64,000 bases of DNA from the NCBI GenBank assembly GCA_012522185.1, contig JAAYKY010000051.1, positions 1-64,000 on the forward strand, in the 5' to 3' direction. Position 1 is the first letter of the stretch. The number at the start of each line of letters is the position of its first letter. Shown here piece after piece: positions 1 through 22,595 of the stretch. A model generated the notes under the pieces. It was not told the origin of the DNA, searched no databases, and saw only the letters and a list, made by a program, of their open reading frames with translations. The position numbers were made by a program, and so were the translations under genes. The stretch is from Flavobacteriaceae bacterium. GTDB taxonomy: Bacteria > Bacteroidota > Bacteroidia > Flavobacteriales > Weeksellaceae.

Positions 1-731
1 AGGGTTTTGTGAGCGGTATGGCGAGCAGTGTAGTCAGCTCGGTCAGCATGGGGATAAACGCAGCTGCAGGTCTTAGCGGCACGGCAGGGGATGTTTCGAC
101 TATGCTTTTTGGTTCTGCCTCCGGTGGTTTATCTTCCAAACTCGCAGGCGGTAACTTCTGGGAAGGAGCAGCTATAGGGTTAACAGTTTCCGGATTGAAT
201 CACGTGGCGCATAAGATGAGCGGACCCGGAGATGATGAGTTAATAAAAAAACTAACACCTGAACAACGAAAACAACTTGAACAAATTAAATCAGGAACTC
301 AACTTACTACAGAAACTCTTCAAAAAACAGGTTTAGATAAAGTTTTGGACAATTGGATAGAAAACACAGCTTTAGGCAAAAATTTAAAAGTAGGTGTAGT
401 AGATTATCTATCTATGGGCGGAGAAATTTATTATGACCATAAGCTGCAGCAGTATAACGGAATCAGTAAGAATGAATTTACATTTAGGTTTGTTACAAAA
501 GCAACGTCGGGTTTAACATCTGCACATTTTGGTTCTCTTGCTGGAGCGGCTATTGGAGCAGAATACGGAGCGACTGTGGGGGGGCTTGTAGGAACTGTTG
601 TTGGAGCTGGTGTTGGTTTTTATATTGAGAACACTTATTGGAGAGGAATAAAATATTTTAATAATTTTATGCAAAGGATGGATGGATACATTCAAAGACA
701 AGTAATTTTTAATGCTAGAAGAGGATTTTAA
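1..731 (+). CDS. C-terminal end of Rhs-like polymorphic toxin (frame open to window start); glycine-zipper-rich toxin domain
   Basis: Frame open upstream of the GTG at 9; pre-toxin motif GGNFWEGAAIGLTVSGLNHVAHK followed by a unique C-terminus containing GSLAGAAIGAEYGATVGGLVGTVVGAGVGFYIE. Confidence 0.75.
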   Translation, partial: GFVSGMASSVVSSVSMGINAAAGLSGTAGDVSTMLFGSASGGLSSKLAGGNFWEGAAIGLTVSGLNHVAHKMSGPGDDELIKKLTPEQRKQLEQIKSGTQLTTETLQKTGLDKVLDNWIENTALGKNLKVGVVDYLSMGGEIYYDHKLQQYNGISKNEFTFRFVTKATSGLTSAHFGSLAGAAIGAEYGATVGGLVGTVVGAGVGFYIENTYWRGIKYFNNFMQRMDGYIQRQVIFNARRGF

Positions 732-732
732 T

Positions 733-1407
733 ATGGAAGTTTCAAAAAAAGTCTTACGAAAAATGCCAACAGATACTCTTAAAGATTATTTAAAAGAAGA
801 TAATCGATATGTATCCCAAGCTGTGGAATATGCATTTGAAATATTACAACAAGAAAGAGGAATTGATTTTTCTCCTGATGAAGTTTTAAGGATACAAAAT
901 TTAATCCAGAAGAAGACAATAGCAGAACAACCAAGCTATGTTCGAAAACAAGAACAAGAAAATAAAAATTCAGATATTAAGCCTGTAACTAATCAAGCTT
1001 CTATATTTTCCAAAAATAACATAATTTTTTTGTCTATAATCCTTAGCCCTTTACTGGGAGGAGCATTATTGTTTTATAATTTGAAAGTTTTAAAAAAAAG
1101 TAATACTAAAAATATAATTTTAATTTTTTCATATCTTGTTGTATCCTTCCTTTTTATTTTTTTGTTTAATATTTTATATACTAATTATTTACAGGGTTTT
1201 ATTAGTTCGATTTTCAATAGTGATTATCTCAATTTTAGATATTCAGCAACAACATTTAAAATTGCATTTAAAACAATGATTAATTTACTTTTTATAAGTT
1301 ATTTATGGGAAATTTTCTTTGGGAAACATTTTTCATATCAATCGAAGGATATTACCTTTCCTGTAATAATCTGTTTAATTATTTATATGGCATTTTTATT
1401 TTTTTAA
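733..1407 (+). CDS. putative immunity protein with about 4 transmembrane segments
   Basis: ATG at 733 directly after the toxin stop at 731; hydrophobic segments NIIFLSIILSPLLGGALLFY, ILIFSYLVVSFLFIFLFNILY, INLLFISYLWEIFF, FPVIICLIIYMAFLFF. Confidence 0.6.
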   Translation: MEVSKKVLRKMPTDTLKDYLKEDNRYVSQAVEYAFEILQQERGIDFSPDEVLRIQNLIQKKTIAEQPSYVRKQEQENKNSDIKPVTNQASIFSKNNIIFLSIILSPLLGGALLFYNLKVLKKSNTKNIILIFSYLVVSFLFIFLFNILYTNYLQGFISSIFNSDYLNFRYSATTFKIAFKTMINLLFISYLWEIFFGKHFSYQSKDITFPVIICLIIYMAFLFF

Positions 1408-1425
1408 TACCAATAGAAAACCACT

Positions 1426-1614
1426 GCAGTGTAGTCAGCTCGGTCAACATGGGGATAAACGCAGCTGCAGGTCTTAGCGGCACCCCCGGGGATATCTCCA
1501 CCATGCTTTTTGGTTCTGCCTCCGGTGGCTTATCTTCCAAACTCGCGGGCGGTAACTTCTGGGAGGGCGCAGCTATAGGGCTTACAGTTTCAGGATTGAA
1601 TCACGTGGCGCATA
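1426..1614 (+). repeat. Second copy of Rhs pre-toxin segment (collinear with 25-213)
   Basis: Near-identical 189-bp collinear match, offset 1401, no indels seen; ends at ...aatcacgtggcgcata in both. Confidence 0.9.
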
Positions 1615-2012
1615 GAAGTACCGCAAAAGATAGTTTTGAAATAACGGAAGAAATAATAGAGCCAACTACTGGGGAATCAGAAGAGGGTTTTCTGCCTCCG
1701 GGAAAAATAAGATTTGAAGGGTTAAAAGATAAGCACTTAAAACAATTTAGAGTAATTCCGGAAAGTAGTTCTGAATTGATATTACCGAATAACGATATAA
1801 CTTACCAAACGGATGGTTTTTATCACCAAAATACGACAGAAGATAAATACTGGTATAAAATAGGTGGTGGAAGAATGGTTCGAGTAACTTATAATGGTAA
1901 GAGTTTTGATTTGTCAAGATCCATCTTTAATCCTTTGGGGCTTGGTAGCTACATTGGATGGAAACCCAAAAGTGAACCACATTGGACGACTAATCCTTTT
2001 TATAAACAATGA
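1449..2012 (+). CDS. orphan polymorphic-toxin C-terminal cassette (unknown toxin domain)
   Basis: Pre-toxin repeat fused to a new C-terminus (...GGGRMVRVTYNGKSFDLSRSIFNPLGLG...); track ORF from 1305 reads through the end of the preceding gene, internal ATG at 1449. Confidence 0.6.
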   Translation: MGINAAAGLSGTPGDISTMLFGSASGGLSSKLAGGNFWEGAAIGLTVSGLNHVAHRSTAKDSFEITEEIIEPTTGESEEGFLPPGKIRFEGLKDKHLKQFRVIPESSSELILPNNDITYQTDGFYHQNTTEDKYWYKIGGGRMVRVTYNGKSFDLSRSIFNPLGLGSYIGWKPKSEPHWTTNPFYKQ

Positions 2013-2314
2013 TGAAAAAGAGGTTTAAACAGATATTGATTGTCATTTTATTGTTAGTGGTAATATCACTCTCGTACATAATTATTAGTGAATATAAGTT
2101 TAAAAATAATATAATAATTGGTATGGAGTTAGTTGAGATACAAAAACTATATGGAAAGGCAGATAAGGTTACTGAAAATGAAAAAGATATTATTTACATA
2201 TATTATTCAACATTTAATAAAACCGTATTTGTGTTTTCTAAAAAAGAGGGCAAACTAAAAACAAAATGGAAAGAAAATTGGTACTTCATTTATGGCAATG
2301 AAGTTAATAACTAA
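2009..2314 (+). CDS. putative immunity protein, N-terminal membrane anchor
   Basis: Overlaps toxin stop; MMKKRFKQILIVILLLVVISLSYIII signal-anchor. Confidence 0.5.
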   Translation: MMKKRFKQILIVILLLVVISLSYIIISEYKFKNNIIIGMELVEIQKLYGKADKVTENEKDIIYIYYSTFNKTVFVFSKKEGKLKTKWKENWYFIYGNEVNN

Positions 2315-2321
2315 AGCACTC

Positions 2322-2358
2322 ACCGTCCGTCAGTGCGTTGAATCATGTGGCGCATAGA
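2322..2358 (+). repeat. Truncated third copy of pre-toxin segment (3' end only)
   Basis: accgtccgtcagtgcgttgaatcatgtggcgcatagaatg matches the 3' end of the repeat at 4661-4699. Confidence 0.7.
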
Positions 2359-2853
2359 ATGCAGGAAAAGAAATTCATTTATAAAGCTAAACAGCATTTA
2401 GATGAAGCTGGTTATGCCCCATATGGAAAGCCTGAAAAGAACACAGGTTATGCTAACAATATGTTGAAAAGGGTTAAAACTTTGAAAAATATGGAAATTC
2501 GTGCAGGTAAAACAATTACGGTTACTGAAATAAATGATGATCCATCCTATAAGGGCGCACACTTGGGAAATGGGAAAATAGCGCTTTCTAAAAATAATAA
2601 CTACACATTCAAAAGTAATATGACTTTATATTTAACTTTATATCATGAATCATTACATGTTGTTTATGATTTCAGTCCAGCTATGAGTATTTACTTAAGA
2701 TCTTCATATAATGATACCAATAAAGCAGGTACCTTAGCAGAGTGGGAGCATTATCTAATTTTTAAAGAAATGAATTCAATATTAGTCAATGGGACAGGTA
2801 CGTTTGGGATAGGAGAAGGATTGAATCCATTAAAAAGATTATTTAGACAATAA
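2338..2853 (+). CDS. orphan toxin cassette, HExxH metallopeptidase-like C-terminal domain
   Basis: LNHVAHRM junction (TTG start), HESLH motif at 2644-2658, downstream EHYLIF; similar to 3422-4021. Confidence 0.65.
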   Translation: MNHVAHRMQEKKFIYKAKQHLDEAGYAPYGKPEKNTGYANNMLKRVKTLKNMEIRAGKTITVTEINDDPSYKGAHLGNGKIALSKNNNYTFKSNMTLYLTLYHESLHVVYDFSPAMSIYLRSSYNDTNKAGTLAEWEHYLIFKEMNSILVNGTGTFGIGEGLNPLKRLFRQ

Positions 2854-2857
2854 AAAT

Positions 2858-3388
2858 ATGGTTATGAAATTAATTATAGTATTAAATATTCTCATTTTAT
2901 TTTCATTTTGCACTTCTACTAAAGATCAAAATGAAGGTATTTCTCCTTATGAAATAGTCTTAGATAATGAATTTCCACGTAGCGATGTTAGAGAGTTAAT
3001 TTTGAATTTCCAACTATTAAATGACGATCGAGTAAAAAAACATGTATGTAAGCAAATGATTGAGGAAGTAAACTCAATAGACTTAGAATTCTTATGCTCA
3101 TTTAAAAATGATAATGCCTTTCAGACAATAGAACAATTAAAGTTAAAACGAAATTACTACGTTTTTGATAAAAAAAATCTATCTGAATTTGAGCCAAATA
3201 ATTATGAAAATATGCCTTATGGAGTAATTAGTTTATCCAATATTTTAACGACAGATGATCCCAACATAATATTAATTTATATTGAAAAATATTTTAGTGG
3301 ATGGGATGGTTTTGGAAAAGTATATGTTTTGAAGAAAAAAGAAAATCGTTGGCATATCAAGAACATATATACTTCATGGAAATCTTAA
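2858..3388 (+). CDS. putative lipoprotein immunity protein (GWDGF family)
   Basis: Lipobox-like LFSFC; C-terminus FSGWDGFGKVYVLKKKENRWHIKNIYTSWKS resembles 4023-4583 product. Confidence 0.6.
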   Translation: MVMKLIIVLNILILFSFCTSTKDQNEGISPYEIVLDNEFPRSDVRELILNFQLLNDDRVKKHVCKQMIEEVNSIDLEFLCSFKNDNAFQTIEQLKLKRNYYVFDKKNLSEFEPNNYENMPYGVISLSNILTTDDPNIILIYIEKYFSGWDGFGKVYVLKKKENRWHIKNIYTSWKS

Positions 3389-3421
3389 TGAGTGTTATCA
3401 GAAGTGTAATAAATAAATAAA

Positions 3422-4021
3422 ATGATATTCTTCGGTACGGTTTCTAATGGTTTATCTTCCAAACTCGCGGGCGGTAACTTCTGGGAAGGTGCAGCGATAG
3501 GTTTAACCGTTTCCGGATTGAATCATACAATGCATAAGATATCATTCAATAGATTTGTTAAAAAATGGACATATAGAGTTCAAGAAGAGCTTGATGCGGC
3601 TGGGTATGACCCTGATGGAATCCCCCAAGCTACAACCAGCTATGGAAATACTATGATCAGCAAATTAAGAACTTTGCAAATAATGAATCGTAGTGCTAAG
3701 GGGAAAATACGTGTTACGGATATTAAAAATGACCCAAAAATTAGGGGAGAAGCAAATTCAGAAGTTGGACTTCGTTTATCCAATGCCAAAGGCTCTTGGA
3801 CTTTTAAATCTAATACGACATATGCATTGGTTTTAATACATGAAGGAGCTCACATCATGTTTGATGTTTTGGGTACTTATTTTCAAACCGGAGATCATGA
3901 GCATTATCAAATTTTTAGGGTTTGGTTGCTCCCTATGATTAATCTAAATACTTCAGCTTATGGATTGTATGATGAATTCAAAACATATGCTGAAAAAACC
4001 CATCAATCCTCAAAATTATAA
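3422..4021 (+). CDS. orphan toxin cassette, HExxH metallopeptidase-like C-terminal domain
   Basis: Pre-toxin repeat SNGLSSKLAGGNFWEGAAIGLTVSGLNH; HEGAH motif at 3839-3853; EHYQIF. Confidence 0.7.
   Translation: MIFFGTVSNGLSSKLAGGNFWEGAAIGLTVSGLNHTMHKISFNRFVKKWTYRVQEELDAAGYDPDGIPQATTSYGNTMISKLRTLQIMNRSAKGKIRVTDIKNDPKIRGEANSEVGLRLSNAKGSWTFKSNTTYALVLIHEGAHIMFDVLGTYFQTGDHEHYQIFRVWLLPMINLNTSAYGLYDEFKTYAEKTHQSSKL
3449..3540 (+). repeat. Fourth copy of pre-toxin segment
   Basis: ggtttatcttccaaactcgcgggcggtaacttctgggaagg... close to 126-217. Confidence 0.85.
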
Positions 4022-4022
4022 A

Positions 4023-4583
4023 ATGAAAAAGACTTTAATATCAACATTGTTTTTTTTAATTCTTTCGTGTCAAACTCAAAAGTTTAATAAGGAAAATGAT
4101 ATTATATATAATCTATTAATTGATAAGATATATCCCAATTCTTCCGATAGCTATTATAAAAAAATTATTATAGGAGAATATACAAAAGCTGGAGAAGAAA
4201 TACATCAAGAAATTAACATTGAAAAATTACAAGACAAATTTCCATCCATACAAAGTGAAACCTATTTGAATTTTATAGAAGTAACAGAGAACACTAAGAG
4301 ATTAACCCTATCACTCAATAGGGAATATCAAATAATTAGTCAGAGAGAAGAAAGTATTATTTTTTATAAACCCGAAAATTGGAATGAGTTTTACATAAAA
4401 TATCCTCAAACAAACGGATTGATGAAATTATCAGCAGTAGGTTTTAATAAAAATATAACACAGGCATTAGTATATTGTGAAAATATTGCAAATGGTTGGG
4501 ACGGATTTGCTTCGATTTTCTTTTTTGAAAGGAAAAATGGAAATTGGACACTTATAGGAATCTATAAGCTTTGGGTCAGCTGA
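4023..4583 (+). CDS. putative lipoprotein immunity protein (GWDGF family)
   Basis: ATG at 4023 right after toxin stop; lipobox LILSC; IANGWDGFASIFFFERKNGNWTLIGIYKLWVS. Confidence 0.6.
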   Translation: MKKTLISTLFFLILSCQTQKFNKENDIIYNLLIDKIYPNSSDSYYKKIIIGEYTKAGEEIHQEINIEKLQDKFPSIQSETYLNFIEVTENTKRLTLSLNREYQIISQREESIIFYKPENWNEFYIKYPQTNGLMKLSAVGFNKNITQALVYCENIANGWDGFASIFFFERKNGNWTLIGIYKLWVS

Positions 4584-4915
4584 TGTTCTTCGGCATGGTT
4601 TCTAGGGGATTATCTGCTGAGCTTACAGGCGGTAACTTCTGGGAAGGTGCAGCGATAGGTTTAACCGTTAGTGCGTTGAATCATGTGATGCATAGGATGA
4701 GTGATCCACAAAAATATAATCTTTTGGAAGCACTTGAAAATAACGGATTTGATGACCCAATGAATACTGATTTAGTGGAAAAAGTTCCCTTAGTCAAAAG
4801 GATGCATAAAAAAGCGAGACGCCCTGAATACTATGCAAAGAATAATCCCGCAAATAGTGATGAGAGGACAAAGCAGTACATAAGACGATTGAGGCAAAGA
4901 CTGCAAAACAAATAA
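4584..4915 (+). CDS. terminal orphan toxin cassette, short C-terminus, no immunity gene seen
   Basis: MFFGMVSRGLSAELTGGNFWEGAAIGLTVSALNHVMHRM plus about 70 aa; track ORF starts at 4571 overlapping upstream stop. Confidence 0.5.
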
Positions 4916-20132: not shown

Positions 20133-20136
20133 ATTC

Positions 20137-20214
20137 AAAAACCCCATAAAACTAATAGGTTTATGAGGTTTAGAGAGTTATAAAAAGTATATGTAGAGAG
20201 AGTTGTCTATTATT
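20137..20214 (-). ncRNA. candidate small RNA A (novel family)
   Basis: Minus-strand TAAATTTG (20221-20228); terminator hairpin (minus strand) AACCTCATAAA...TTTATGGGGTTTTT at 20137-20170; no ORF. Confidence 0.5.
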
Positions 20215-20250
20215 CTGATACAAATTTAGTTTTCAAGTTTTAATTATTAT

Positions 20251-20285
20251 CAGGAATTATCCTGATTTTTAAAAGGAAAATCCCT
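20251..20285 (-). promoter_or_regulatory. conserved upstream box A
   Basis: caggaattatcctgatttttaaaaggaaaatccct; starts 22 nt beyond the -7 element. Confidence 0.5.
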
Positions 20286-20295
20286 AGTTGATATC

Positions 20296-20424
20296 AAAAA
20301 AAATCTCACTATCCAGGGGAGGAAGCGTGAGATTTCAATTCACTTAAATTTTAGTTAAGAACATAGTATCAAAAATGTTTAAGTTGGTTAAAACAGTTTA
20401 GGTTAGATTGATTTGACACTTTTG
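20296..20424 (-). ncRNA. candidate small RNA B (novel family)
   Basis: Minus-strand TAAGTTTG (20431-20438); terminator AAATCTCACGC...GTGAGATTTTTTTT at 20296-20335; resembles C. Confidence 0.55.
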
Positions 20425-20460
20425 ATACAGCAAACTTACTCATGATAACTATGAATTTAT

Positions 20461-20500
20461 AAGGGAAAACCCTCATTTTTCAACAGGATTTTTCCCTTTG
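20461..20500 (-). promoter_or_regulatory. conserved upstream box B
   Basis: aagggaaaaccctcatttttcaacaggatttttccctttg; 22 nt from the -7 element. Confidence 0.5.
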
Positions 20501-20643
20501 AAAAAAAAAATCTACTGAAATCAAATTGAATTTTTAATTATAACATACTCATTAAATACAAACATGATATCATCCAAATGCTTTAGAAATCAAATCTATT
20601 TAATTTATTCAATCCGACTTGCCAAACCAACTTTTGGGTAAAT

Positions 20644-20765
20644 AAAAAAATCCCACAATTCCGGGGTTCGAACCGTGAGATTTCAGCACACTTGATTTAG
20701 TAGAGAGTGTCATGTTGAAAATGATTTGGTTGGTTGTAGCTAAGGTTAGCTTTTTTTACATTTTC
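20644..20765 (-). ncRNA. candidate small RNA C (novel family)
   Basis: Minus-strand TTG-N22-TAGATTTG (20772-20779, 20802-20804); terminator AAATCTCACGG...GTGGGATTTTTTT. Confidence 0.55.
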
Positions 20766-20801
20766 TATTTACAAATCTAAGTACTCATTATTAAATAATT
20801 A

Positions 20802-20836
20802 CAAGGAAAAACCCCCATTTTTTTGGAGATATTTCC
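20802..20836 (-). promoter_or_regulatory. conserved upstream box C
   Basis: caaggaaaaacccccatttttttggagatatttcc; 22 nt from the -7 element. Confidence 0.5.
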
Positions 20837-20908
20837 TATAAAATTGATAGGCTATTTCTGTCAAATAAGTGTATTGTTTCTTATTTTAGCAATTTATATA
20901 TAGAAAAT

Positions 20909-22393
20909 ATGCAAGAAATATTAAATCTCGAACCTCAGAATATCTGGAAAAATTTTTATGAGCTCAATCAAGTTCCGCGTCCTTCAAAAAAGGAAGAAAA
21001 AGTAATCCAATTCATGATGGATTTCGGAAATAATTTAGGTCTGGAAACCATTCAGGACAAAGTCGGAAATGTCATCATCAAAAAACCGGCAACAACGGGA
21101 ATGGAAAACAGAAAAACCATCGTTTTGCAATCACACCTCGATATGGTTTGTCAGAAAAATAACGACGTCGATTTCGATTTTGATACCCAAGCCATTCAAA
21201 TGTATGTGGATACAGACGGTTTCCTAAAAGCAAAAGGAACGACTTTGGGCGCGGATAATGGAATTGGAGTAGCAACGATTATGGCCGTTTTGGAGTCGAC
21301 CGATATTCCTCATCCGCCGATTGAAGCACTTTTTACCATTGACGAAGAAACCGGAATGACCGGAGCAATTGGTTTGGATCCGACAATTTTATCGGGCGAA
21401 ATTTTACTGAATCTCGATACCGAAGAAGATGACGAACTTACCATAAGCTGTGCCGGCGGAATGGACGTTACCGCTACCAAAAAGTATAATCCGCAAAATC
21501 TTTCACAACACAGCGAAACCGGCTCTGAAGCCGGAAACTTTGCTTCTTTAAAAGTGGAAATCAAAGGTTTAAAAGGCGGACATTCGGGCGGGGATATTCA
21601 ATTGGGACTTGGGAATTCCAATAAATTATTGGCAAGATTTTTAAATGAATCTTTGAAACATCTGGCTCAAATTTCCAAAATGGAAAGTGGCGGACTTCGA
21701 AATGCAATTCCACGCGAAGGTTACTTTATCATTGCAGTACCTCAAACTGAATTGGAGAAAGCAATTGCTGATTTGGAAAGCTTGAAAAGCGATGTGAAGA
21801 ACGAATTCAAATCCATTGAACCCAATATTTCCATTGAAATTTCAAAAACCAATCATTTAAAAGAAGCGGCTTCATTTGAGGAAACTAAAAAATTGGCACA
21901 AGCTCTGATGTCGGCCTACAACGGGGTTTATCGAATGAGTCCCGATATGGAAGGCGTTACAGAAACTTCCAATAACGTCGCAAATGTTGTAGTTGACAAC
22001 GGCGAAATGAAAATTCTTTGTCTTTCACGTTCAGCAATTGAATCAGGCAAAAAAGCGATGATCGAATCGCTCCAAGCTACGTTTGAACTGGCCGGATTTA
22101 AGGTTGAATTTTCGGGCGGATATCCAGGATGGCGGCCCAATGTGAATTCGGAAATTTTGGATTTGATGAAACCATTGTACAAAGAAATGTTTGGTGAAGA
22201 GCCAAAAATCATCGCAACTCATGGCGGGTTGGAATGTGGAATCATCGGCGGGCATTATCCGGAAATGGATATGATTTCTTTTGGTCCGAATATTTTCGGC
22301 GCCCACTCCCCTGACGAACGTGTGGAAATCAAATCGGTTCAGAAATTCTGGAAGTATTTCTTGGAGGTTCTGAAAAGAATCCCCCAAAAATAA
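20909..22393 (+). CDS. pepD: aminoacyl-histidine dipeptidase
   Basis: VLQSHLDMVCQKN, GTTLGADNGIGVA, NLDTEEDDELTISCAGG, THGGLECGIIG. Confidence 0.92.
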   Translation: MQEILNLEPQNIWKNFYELNQVPRPSKKEEKVIQFMMDFGNNLGLETIQDKVGNVIIKKPATTGMENRKTIVLQSHLDMVCQKNNDVDFDFDTQAIQMYVDTDGFLKAKGTTLGADNGIGVATIMAVLESTDIPHPPIEALFTIDEETGMTGAIGLDPTILSGEILLNLDTEEDDELTISCAGGMDVTATKKYNPQNLSQHSETGSEAGNFASLKVEIKGLKGGHSGGDIQLGLGNSNKLLARFLNESLKHLAQISKMESGGLRNAIPREGYFIIAVPQTELEKAIADLESLKSDVKNEFKSIEPNISIEISKTNHLKEAASFEETKKLAQALMSAYNGVYRMSPDMEGVTETSNNVANVVVDNGEMKILCLSRSAIESGKKAMIESLQATFELAGFKVEFSGGYPGWRPNVNSEILDLMKPLYKEMFGEEPKIIATHGGLECGIIGGHYPEMDMISFGPNIFGAHSPDERVEIKSVQKFWKYFLEVLKRIPQK

Positions 22394-22395
22394 AA

Positions 22396-22523
22396 CAAAA
22401 ACGCGCCACAGAGAGAATTGTGGCGCGTTTTTTTGGAAATAAAGAGTTTAAATAATGAGGATGGTGAAAAATGATTCTTAAATTCATAATTCTAAATCAT
22501 TCCTAGAACGCTTCGTTGAGTTT
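22396..22523 (-). ncRNA. candidate small RNA D (novel family)
   Basis: Minus-strand TTG-N22-TACATTTG (22530-22537, 22560-22562); terminator stem ACGCGCCACA/TGTGGCGCGT at 22401-22428, shared with pepD. Confidence 0.5.
22401..22434. terminator. bidirectional intrinsic terminator
   Basis: caaaaacgcgccacagagagaattgtggcgcgttttttt: 10-bp perfect stem with A-tract and T-tract. Confidence 0.85.
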
Positions 22524-22559
22524 ATATTGCAAATGTACTTATCTCAATTCATTGATTCA

Positions 22560-22595
22560 CAAGGAAAAACCCTGAATTTATTCAAGAGAATTCCT
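22560..22595 (-). promoter_or_regulatory. conserved upstream box D
   Basis: caaggaaaaaccctgaatttattcaagagaattcctg; 22 nt from the -7 element. Confidence 0.5.

Follow-up and report, generated by a model that had tools for sequence, protein, structure and literature searches.

In the GacS/GacA-RsmX/Y/Z system, a response regulator activates several small RNAs (sRNAs) from an upstream palindrome. LhrC1-5 of Listeria monocytogenes are five sRNA copies, with lhrC1-4 clustered and one apart, and all are under the control of LisRK (PMC4132741). The csRNAs of Streptococcus are two to six sibling sRNAs, partly in tandem, that are driven by CiaRH (PMC4211561). In the Bacteroidota, the FopS sRNAs of Bacteroides thetaiotaomicron form a multicopy family whose members are alike in sequence and have canonical promoters of the TAnnTTTG type (PMC11697453). 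A search of the open-licence literature found no two-component-controlled sRNA cluster in this phylum.

The locus compared with these systems lies in a 64,000-nucleotide stretch of a Flavobacteriaceae genome of the genus Moheibacter (contig JAAYKY010000051.1), called the window. It holds four units, A to D, that look like small RNA genes judging by their sequence. A fifth, E, lies on another contig. Several predicted sRNA genes in this genome share one common operator, since all five units have the same dyads and spacing. With moderate confidence, the boxes upstream of A to D and of E can be read as tandem operators of one activator, for which the candidate is the NarL/FixJ response regulator P0004.

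P0004 resembles GacA at the domain level, in having a receiver and a LuxR-type helix-turn-helix. It is not a GacA equivalog, scoring 113.3 bits against the NCBIfam UvrY/SirA/GacA cutoff of 280, and the units are likened to RsmX/Y/Z by the regulator domains and the upstream palindrome, not by a protein-sequestering repeat. As with LhrC, which has pyrimidine-rich target-recognition motifs, there are five units, four clustered and one apart. LhrC differs in belonging to the Firmicutes, in its regulator and operator, and in having near-identical copies, whereas A, D and E have unrelated bodies and the units are known from sequence alone. The csRNAs share with the units the presence of several sRNAs, partly in tandem, under one two-component system (here a candidate), but they belong to another phylum, have other RNA sequences and are mutually alike, which the units are only in part. 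The units therefore seem to work like LhrC/LisRK and csRNA/CiaRH in design, and membership in neither is claimed. FopS is likewise a set of multicopy sRNAs in the Bacteroidota with TAnnTTTG-type promoters. It is set apart by the likeness of its members and by their canonical promoters, for which the available part of the description gives no common activator box (PMC11697453).

Architecture of the units

All four units at the locus lie on the minus strand (Table 1), so that TAnnTTTG reads CAAANNTA on the plus strand. Along the transcribed strand, each consists of a distal dyad, a proximal dyad, a spacer, TAnnTTTG, a predicted RNA body and a predicted intrinsic terminator 80-150 nt downstream, with the box 22 nt upstream of TAnnTTTG. 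A sequence-only reading of this DNA had reported the boxes, the CAAANNTA elements and the 22-nt gaps, and all were found in place, with boxes starting at 20251 (A), 20461 (B), 20802 (C) and 22560 (D). Its gap of exactly 22 nt holds for the letters chosen. Measured from the edge of the dyad, A and B have a gap of 23 nt and C and D one of 24 nt; the value appeared invariant because the box start had been set one base apart between units.

The core of the box is an RGG-N6-CCY dyad, present as a tandem pair in every unit. What had been described as a second, GGAnATTTCC-like half does exist and proves to be a complete second dyad of this form, at a dyad-to-dyad distance of 22 bp in A, C and D and 23 bp in B. 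The sRNA-like downstream genes, the tandem dyad, the fifth unit and the dyads before a two-component operon go beyond the earlier reading.

Table 1. Predicted features of units A to D, in positions of the window.
Feature	Position	Strand	Basis
sRNA A (predicted; +1 at 20216, terminator hairpin ~20140-20171)	20136..20216	-	sequence, fold, orthologues in G001 and G005
-7 element of A, TAAATTTG	20221..20228	-	sequence
Proximal dyad of A, AGGATAATTCCT	20252..20263	-	sequence
Distal dyad of A, AGGGATTTTCCT	20274..20285	-	sequence
sRNA B (predicted), paralogue of C	20296..20426	-	sequence
-7 element of B, TAAGTTTG	20431..20438	-	sequence
Proximal dyad of B, AGGGTTTTCCCT	20462..20473	-	sequence
Distal dyad of B, GGGAAAAATCCT	20485..20496	-	sequence
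sRNA C (predicted; terminator hairpin 20647-20684)	20644..20767	-	orthologues in G001 and G005
-7 element of C, TAGATTTG	20772..20779	-	sequence
Proximal dyad of C, GGGGTTTTTCCT	20804..20815	-	sequence
Distal dyad of C, AGGAAATATCTC	20826..20837	-	sequence
sRNA D (predicted; terminator hairpin 22397-22432)	22391..22525	-	orthologues in G001 and G005
-7 element of D, TACATTTG	22530..22537	-	sequence
Proximal dyad of D, AGGGTTTTTCCT	22562..22573	-	sequence
Distal dyad of D, AGGAATTCTCTT	22584..22595	-	sequence

Between their predicted promoters and terminators, the bodies of A to E are 80-150 nt long, and each closes with a hairpin followed by a T run. Compared by eye, orthologous units keep no reading frame. 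B and C are paralogues along their length, and A, D and E have bodies of unrelated sequence. The best Rfam matches over the units fall under the gathering threshold, so that no known family is found. CTCTCT or TCTCTC occurs in four of the five RNAs, which none of 2000 shuffles equalled for that motif. At least one six-letter word reaches the same spread among the RNAs in 79 of 2000 shuffles, and once all words are considered the shared CUCUCU is weak and only a hint.

Promoter geometry

TAnnTTTG, the -7 element of Bacteroidota promoters for the primary sigma factor (sigma-ABfr type), is present in all four units. In Flavobacterium psychrophilum it occupies -12 to -5 (PMC9723704). If it does so here as well, the centre of the proximal dyad falls at -41.5 in A and B and at -42.5 in C and D. 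The distal dyad lies two helical turns above, which places the pair at about -42 and -64.

A TTTG at about -33 is absent from the units: there is none in A or B, for which the earlier reading had noted the lack of TTG, and in C and D the box includes a TTG at about -37 to -35. A centre near -42 is a classic activator position, and the layout would be that of an activator contacting the polymerase from just upstream, a reading based on established promoter classes. The earlier proposal of regulator-dependent promoters, with the box as an operator or activator site near -33, is supported by this dyad centre and by conservation in two sister species, and the genome scan, in which a chance frequency of the motif would have counted against it, did not refute it.

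Genome scan and the fifth unit

The scan that the sequence-only reading had proposed was made with the composite pattern CAAANNTA-N22-MARGRAWWWHCCY. With no mismatch it matches the 2.55-Mb genome four times, at units A to D, and its reversed control never does. Allowing one mismatch adds two matches, one of them a genuine fifth unit; with two, forward and reversed-control counts are similar. Since the pattern was derived from A to D themselves, the informative results are the lack of extra exact matches, the zero control, the fifth unit and the conservation in genomes not used for the pattern. The genome was searched by pattern and by model and read in stretches. Five box-like matches elsewhere in it (L002, L003, L005-L007) have no -7 element 22 nt away.

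Unit E, one of the two one-mismatch matches, lies beside ftsY on contig C10 and has the same dyads, a 22-nt box gap and its own predicted terminator. Its orthologue in G005 also adjoins ftsY, and the two terminators are closely similar.

Conservation in Moheibacter

A search with unit C finds relatives in two other Moheibacter genomes, one of them that of Moheibacter lacus. Both sister genomes have units at the same locus, around a peptidase gene. Five of the six units there have CCT and 24 nt before TAnnTTTG, with unrelated spacers. The sixth, unit A of M. lacus, has a spacing one nucleotide shorter, with GAAATTTG. Two further genomes of the genus, G002 and G003, have no units next to the peptidase gene. 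Conservation of dyads and spacing across two other species despite spacer divergence favours an activator site.

In G005, a pair consisting of a TPR histidine kinase and a LuxR regulator is inserted directly beside unit D (L052:191-3086) and is absent in the other two species. This pair was considered as the regulator and rejected: it has no close homologue in G000 or G001, and its recognition helix differs.

Candidate regulator

P0004 is encoded on contig C58 in a four-gene operon of a lipoprotein, a membrane protein, a HisKA_3 kinase and the regulator itself. Its receiver (PF00072, 89 bits) and GerE/LuxR helix-turn-helix (PF00196, 38.5 bits) both score above cutoff. P0004 and the units are on different contigs, and the common site is the sole link between them.

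The operon is conserved in this genome, in M. lacus and in G005, with a dyad pair in each promoter region, weak in M. lacus. The same dyads occur in the operon's own promoter region both in Moheibacter and in unrelated Bacteroidota. In G002 they precede an operon of lipoprotein, membrane protein, kinase and regulator, and in Lutibacter a dyad array precedes the module. A distant member of the Bacteroidia found in the GTDB pattern scan (L177) has the same operon type with three dyad pairs around the module. A model of ten units, run against 298 family genomes, gives weaker relatives outside Moheibacter. Two of these genomes (G052 and G071), from one other genus, have the promoter driving an sRNA-like unit divergent from a HisKA_3 kinase and a LuxR-type regulator. 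A search with the membrane protein of the module found only five genomes because this protein diverges fast.

Regulators at these loci have the recognition helix KT[IV][DE]GYR in common. All nine modules with this helix that were first examined, those of Lutibacter and L177 among them, have a dyad pair in the promoter region (eight scoring at least 15 of 16, M. lacus 13), in a set biased by coming mostly from genomes reached through box matches. The module background count is unusable, its loci having mostly been chosen for boxes.

A less biased test takes modules by regulator similarity alone. Scored over 400 bp, dyad pairs have a high background, so these modules were judged by the geometry relative to TAnnTTTG instead. 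KTIDGYR modules have good dyads 22-26 nt before the -7 element, and sister-class modules have them at 23-25 and 33-35 nt, the latter one helical turn further. No good dyads were found at any other distance between 8 and 69 nt from the -7 element. Only four of the ten KTIDGYR modules have a dyad pair of at least 14.5, or a proximal dyad of at least 7 with evidence of a pair by eye. In this genome, the promoter of a second, paralogous module, on contig C52, lacks a good dyad pair. The promoters of three sister modules (L284, L288, L290), whose regulator has the helix SPRTVESYR, contain another dyad, CCGTAAAATCACGG, as though a change of helix went with a change of operator.

A broader generalization is possible but tentative. 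Four-gene sensor modules of the Bacteroidota, consisting of a variable exported protein, a membrane protein, a HisKA_3 kinase and a KTIDGYR-type regulator, may have a single operator in common, a tandem pair of RGG-N6-CCY dyads that lies 23-24 nt before TAnnTTTG. Their main output in Moheibacter and some other lineages would be sRNAs, a Gac-like design of independent origin.

Similar promoters across the Bacteroidota

A pattern scan of 85,488 GTDB genomes, from which records of the own genome were possibly left out, gives 43 stretches. All are of Bacteroidota type; one metagenome-assembled genome (MAG) labelled Clostridium carries Prevotella-type genes. About half of the matches are one Prevotella/Bacteroidaceae promoter ahead of an outer-membrane-protein operon. 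In Prevotella and relatives (L174-L211), this promoter is strongly conserved and sits between prmA and the two-gene operon. In five of six Prevotella/Bacteroidaceae genomes with the promoter pattern, no homologue of P0004 is found at E<1e-12; the remaining genome has only a weak one. Either a similar site is read by another protein in these genomes, or a regulator of wider scope is responsible for it.

Five other GTDB matches, in Bacteroidota MAGs (L169, L171, L195, L199, L207), have the composite pattern ahead of V-type ATPase operons. At 3053-3119 in a Flavobacterium MAG (L173), an apparent tracrRNA beside cas9 has this dyad pair and -7 element in front of it. In Chryseobacterium-like genomes (L101, L107, L108, L118, L120, L122; L102, L112), related but weaker promoters are found ahead of RebB-like (R-body) genes and of contractile tail-sheath (extracellular injection system) operons. 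Kinase-regulator modules lie a few kb from RebB-like genes at L137 and L138. In the window itself (9-4915), successive short open reading frames have a common MLFGSASGGLSSKLAGGNFWEGAAIGLTVSGLNH followed by differing C-termini, like orphan C-terminal modules of a polymorphic toxin.

Alternative explanations

Another activator, conserved more widely in the Bacteroidota, could read the dyads, with the response regulator operons merely among its targets. Proteins of the Crp/Fnr family, for example, likewise favour N6 dyads near -41.5, and the pattern stands before the Prevotella outer-membrane-protein operon and the V-ATPase operons, in the former case in genomes with no P0004 homologue or only a weak one. 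Such an activator is nevertheless unlikely, given that the dyads follow the regulator modules across lineages and retain their geometry to the -7 element. The Prevotella matches, moreover, are one orthologous promoter chosen for its resemblance and count as a single event.

Response regulators can also act as repressors. A regulator bound at -36 to -70 might hold the sRNA promoters off, and the proximal site does adjoin the -33 region. There is no TTTG at -33 to block, however, and dyads in helical phase at about -42 and -64 cover neither the -7 element nor the start, which leaves a repressor operator improbable. Finally, the likeness of the boxes might be a functionless remnant of recent tandem duplication, as the adjacency of A to C and the paralogy of B and C along their length could suggest. 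This is very hard to credit: it would need equal divergence of box and spacer between orthologues, and the opposite is seen. The spacers differ but the dyads and their spacing persist, A, D and E have unrelated bodies, E lies on a different contig, and the architecture is retained in two other species.

Proposed mechanism and significance

If P0004 is the activator of the five units, two dimers of the phosphorylated regulator would occupy the dyad pair along one face of the DNA. Of these, the one centred near -42 would touch RNA polymerase and substitute for the absent -33 element, and the dyads before the regulator's own operon would provide autoregulation. In the least certain step, the RNAs would pair with mRNAs through unpaired pyrimidine-rich stretches, such as the CUCUCU of four of the five. 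One environmental sensor would then probably switch on a whole set of regulatory RNAs.

Few regulator operators and sRNA circuits have been described in Bacteroidota outside Bacteroides. With an operator, its geometry relative to the unusual promoter of the phylum, P0004 as the candidate regulator and five RNAs as its predicted targets, a whole circuit from sensor to sRNA becomes testable.
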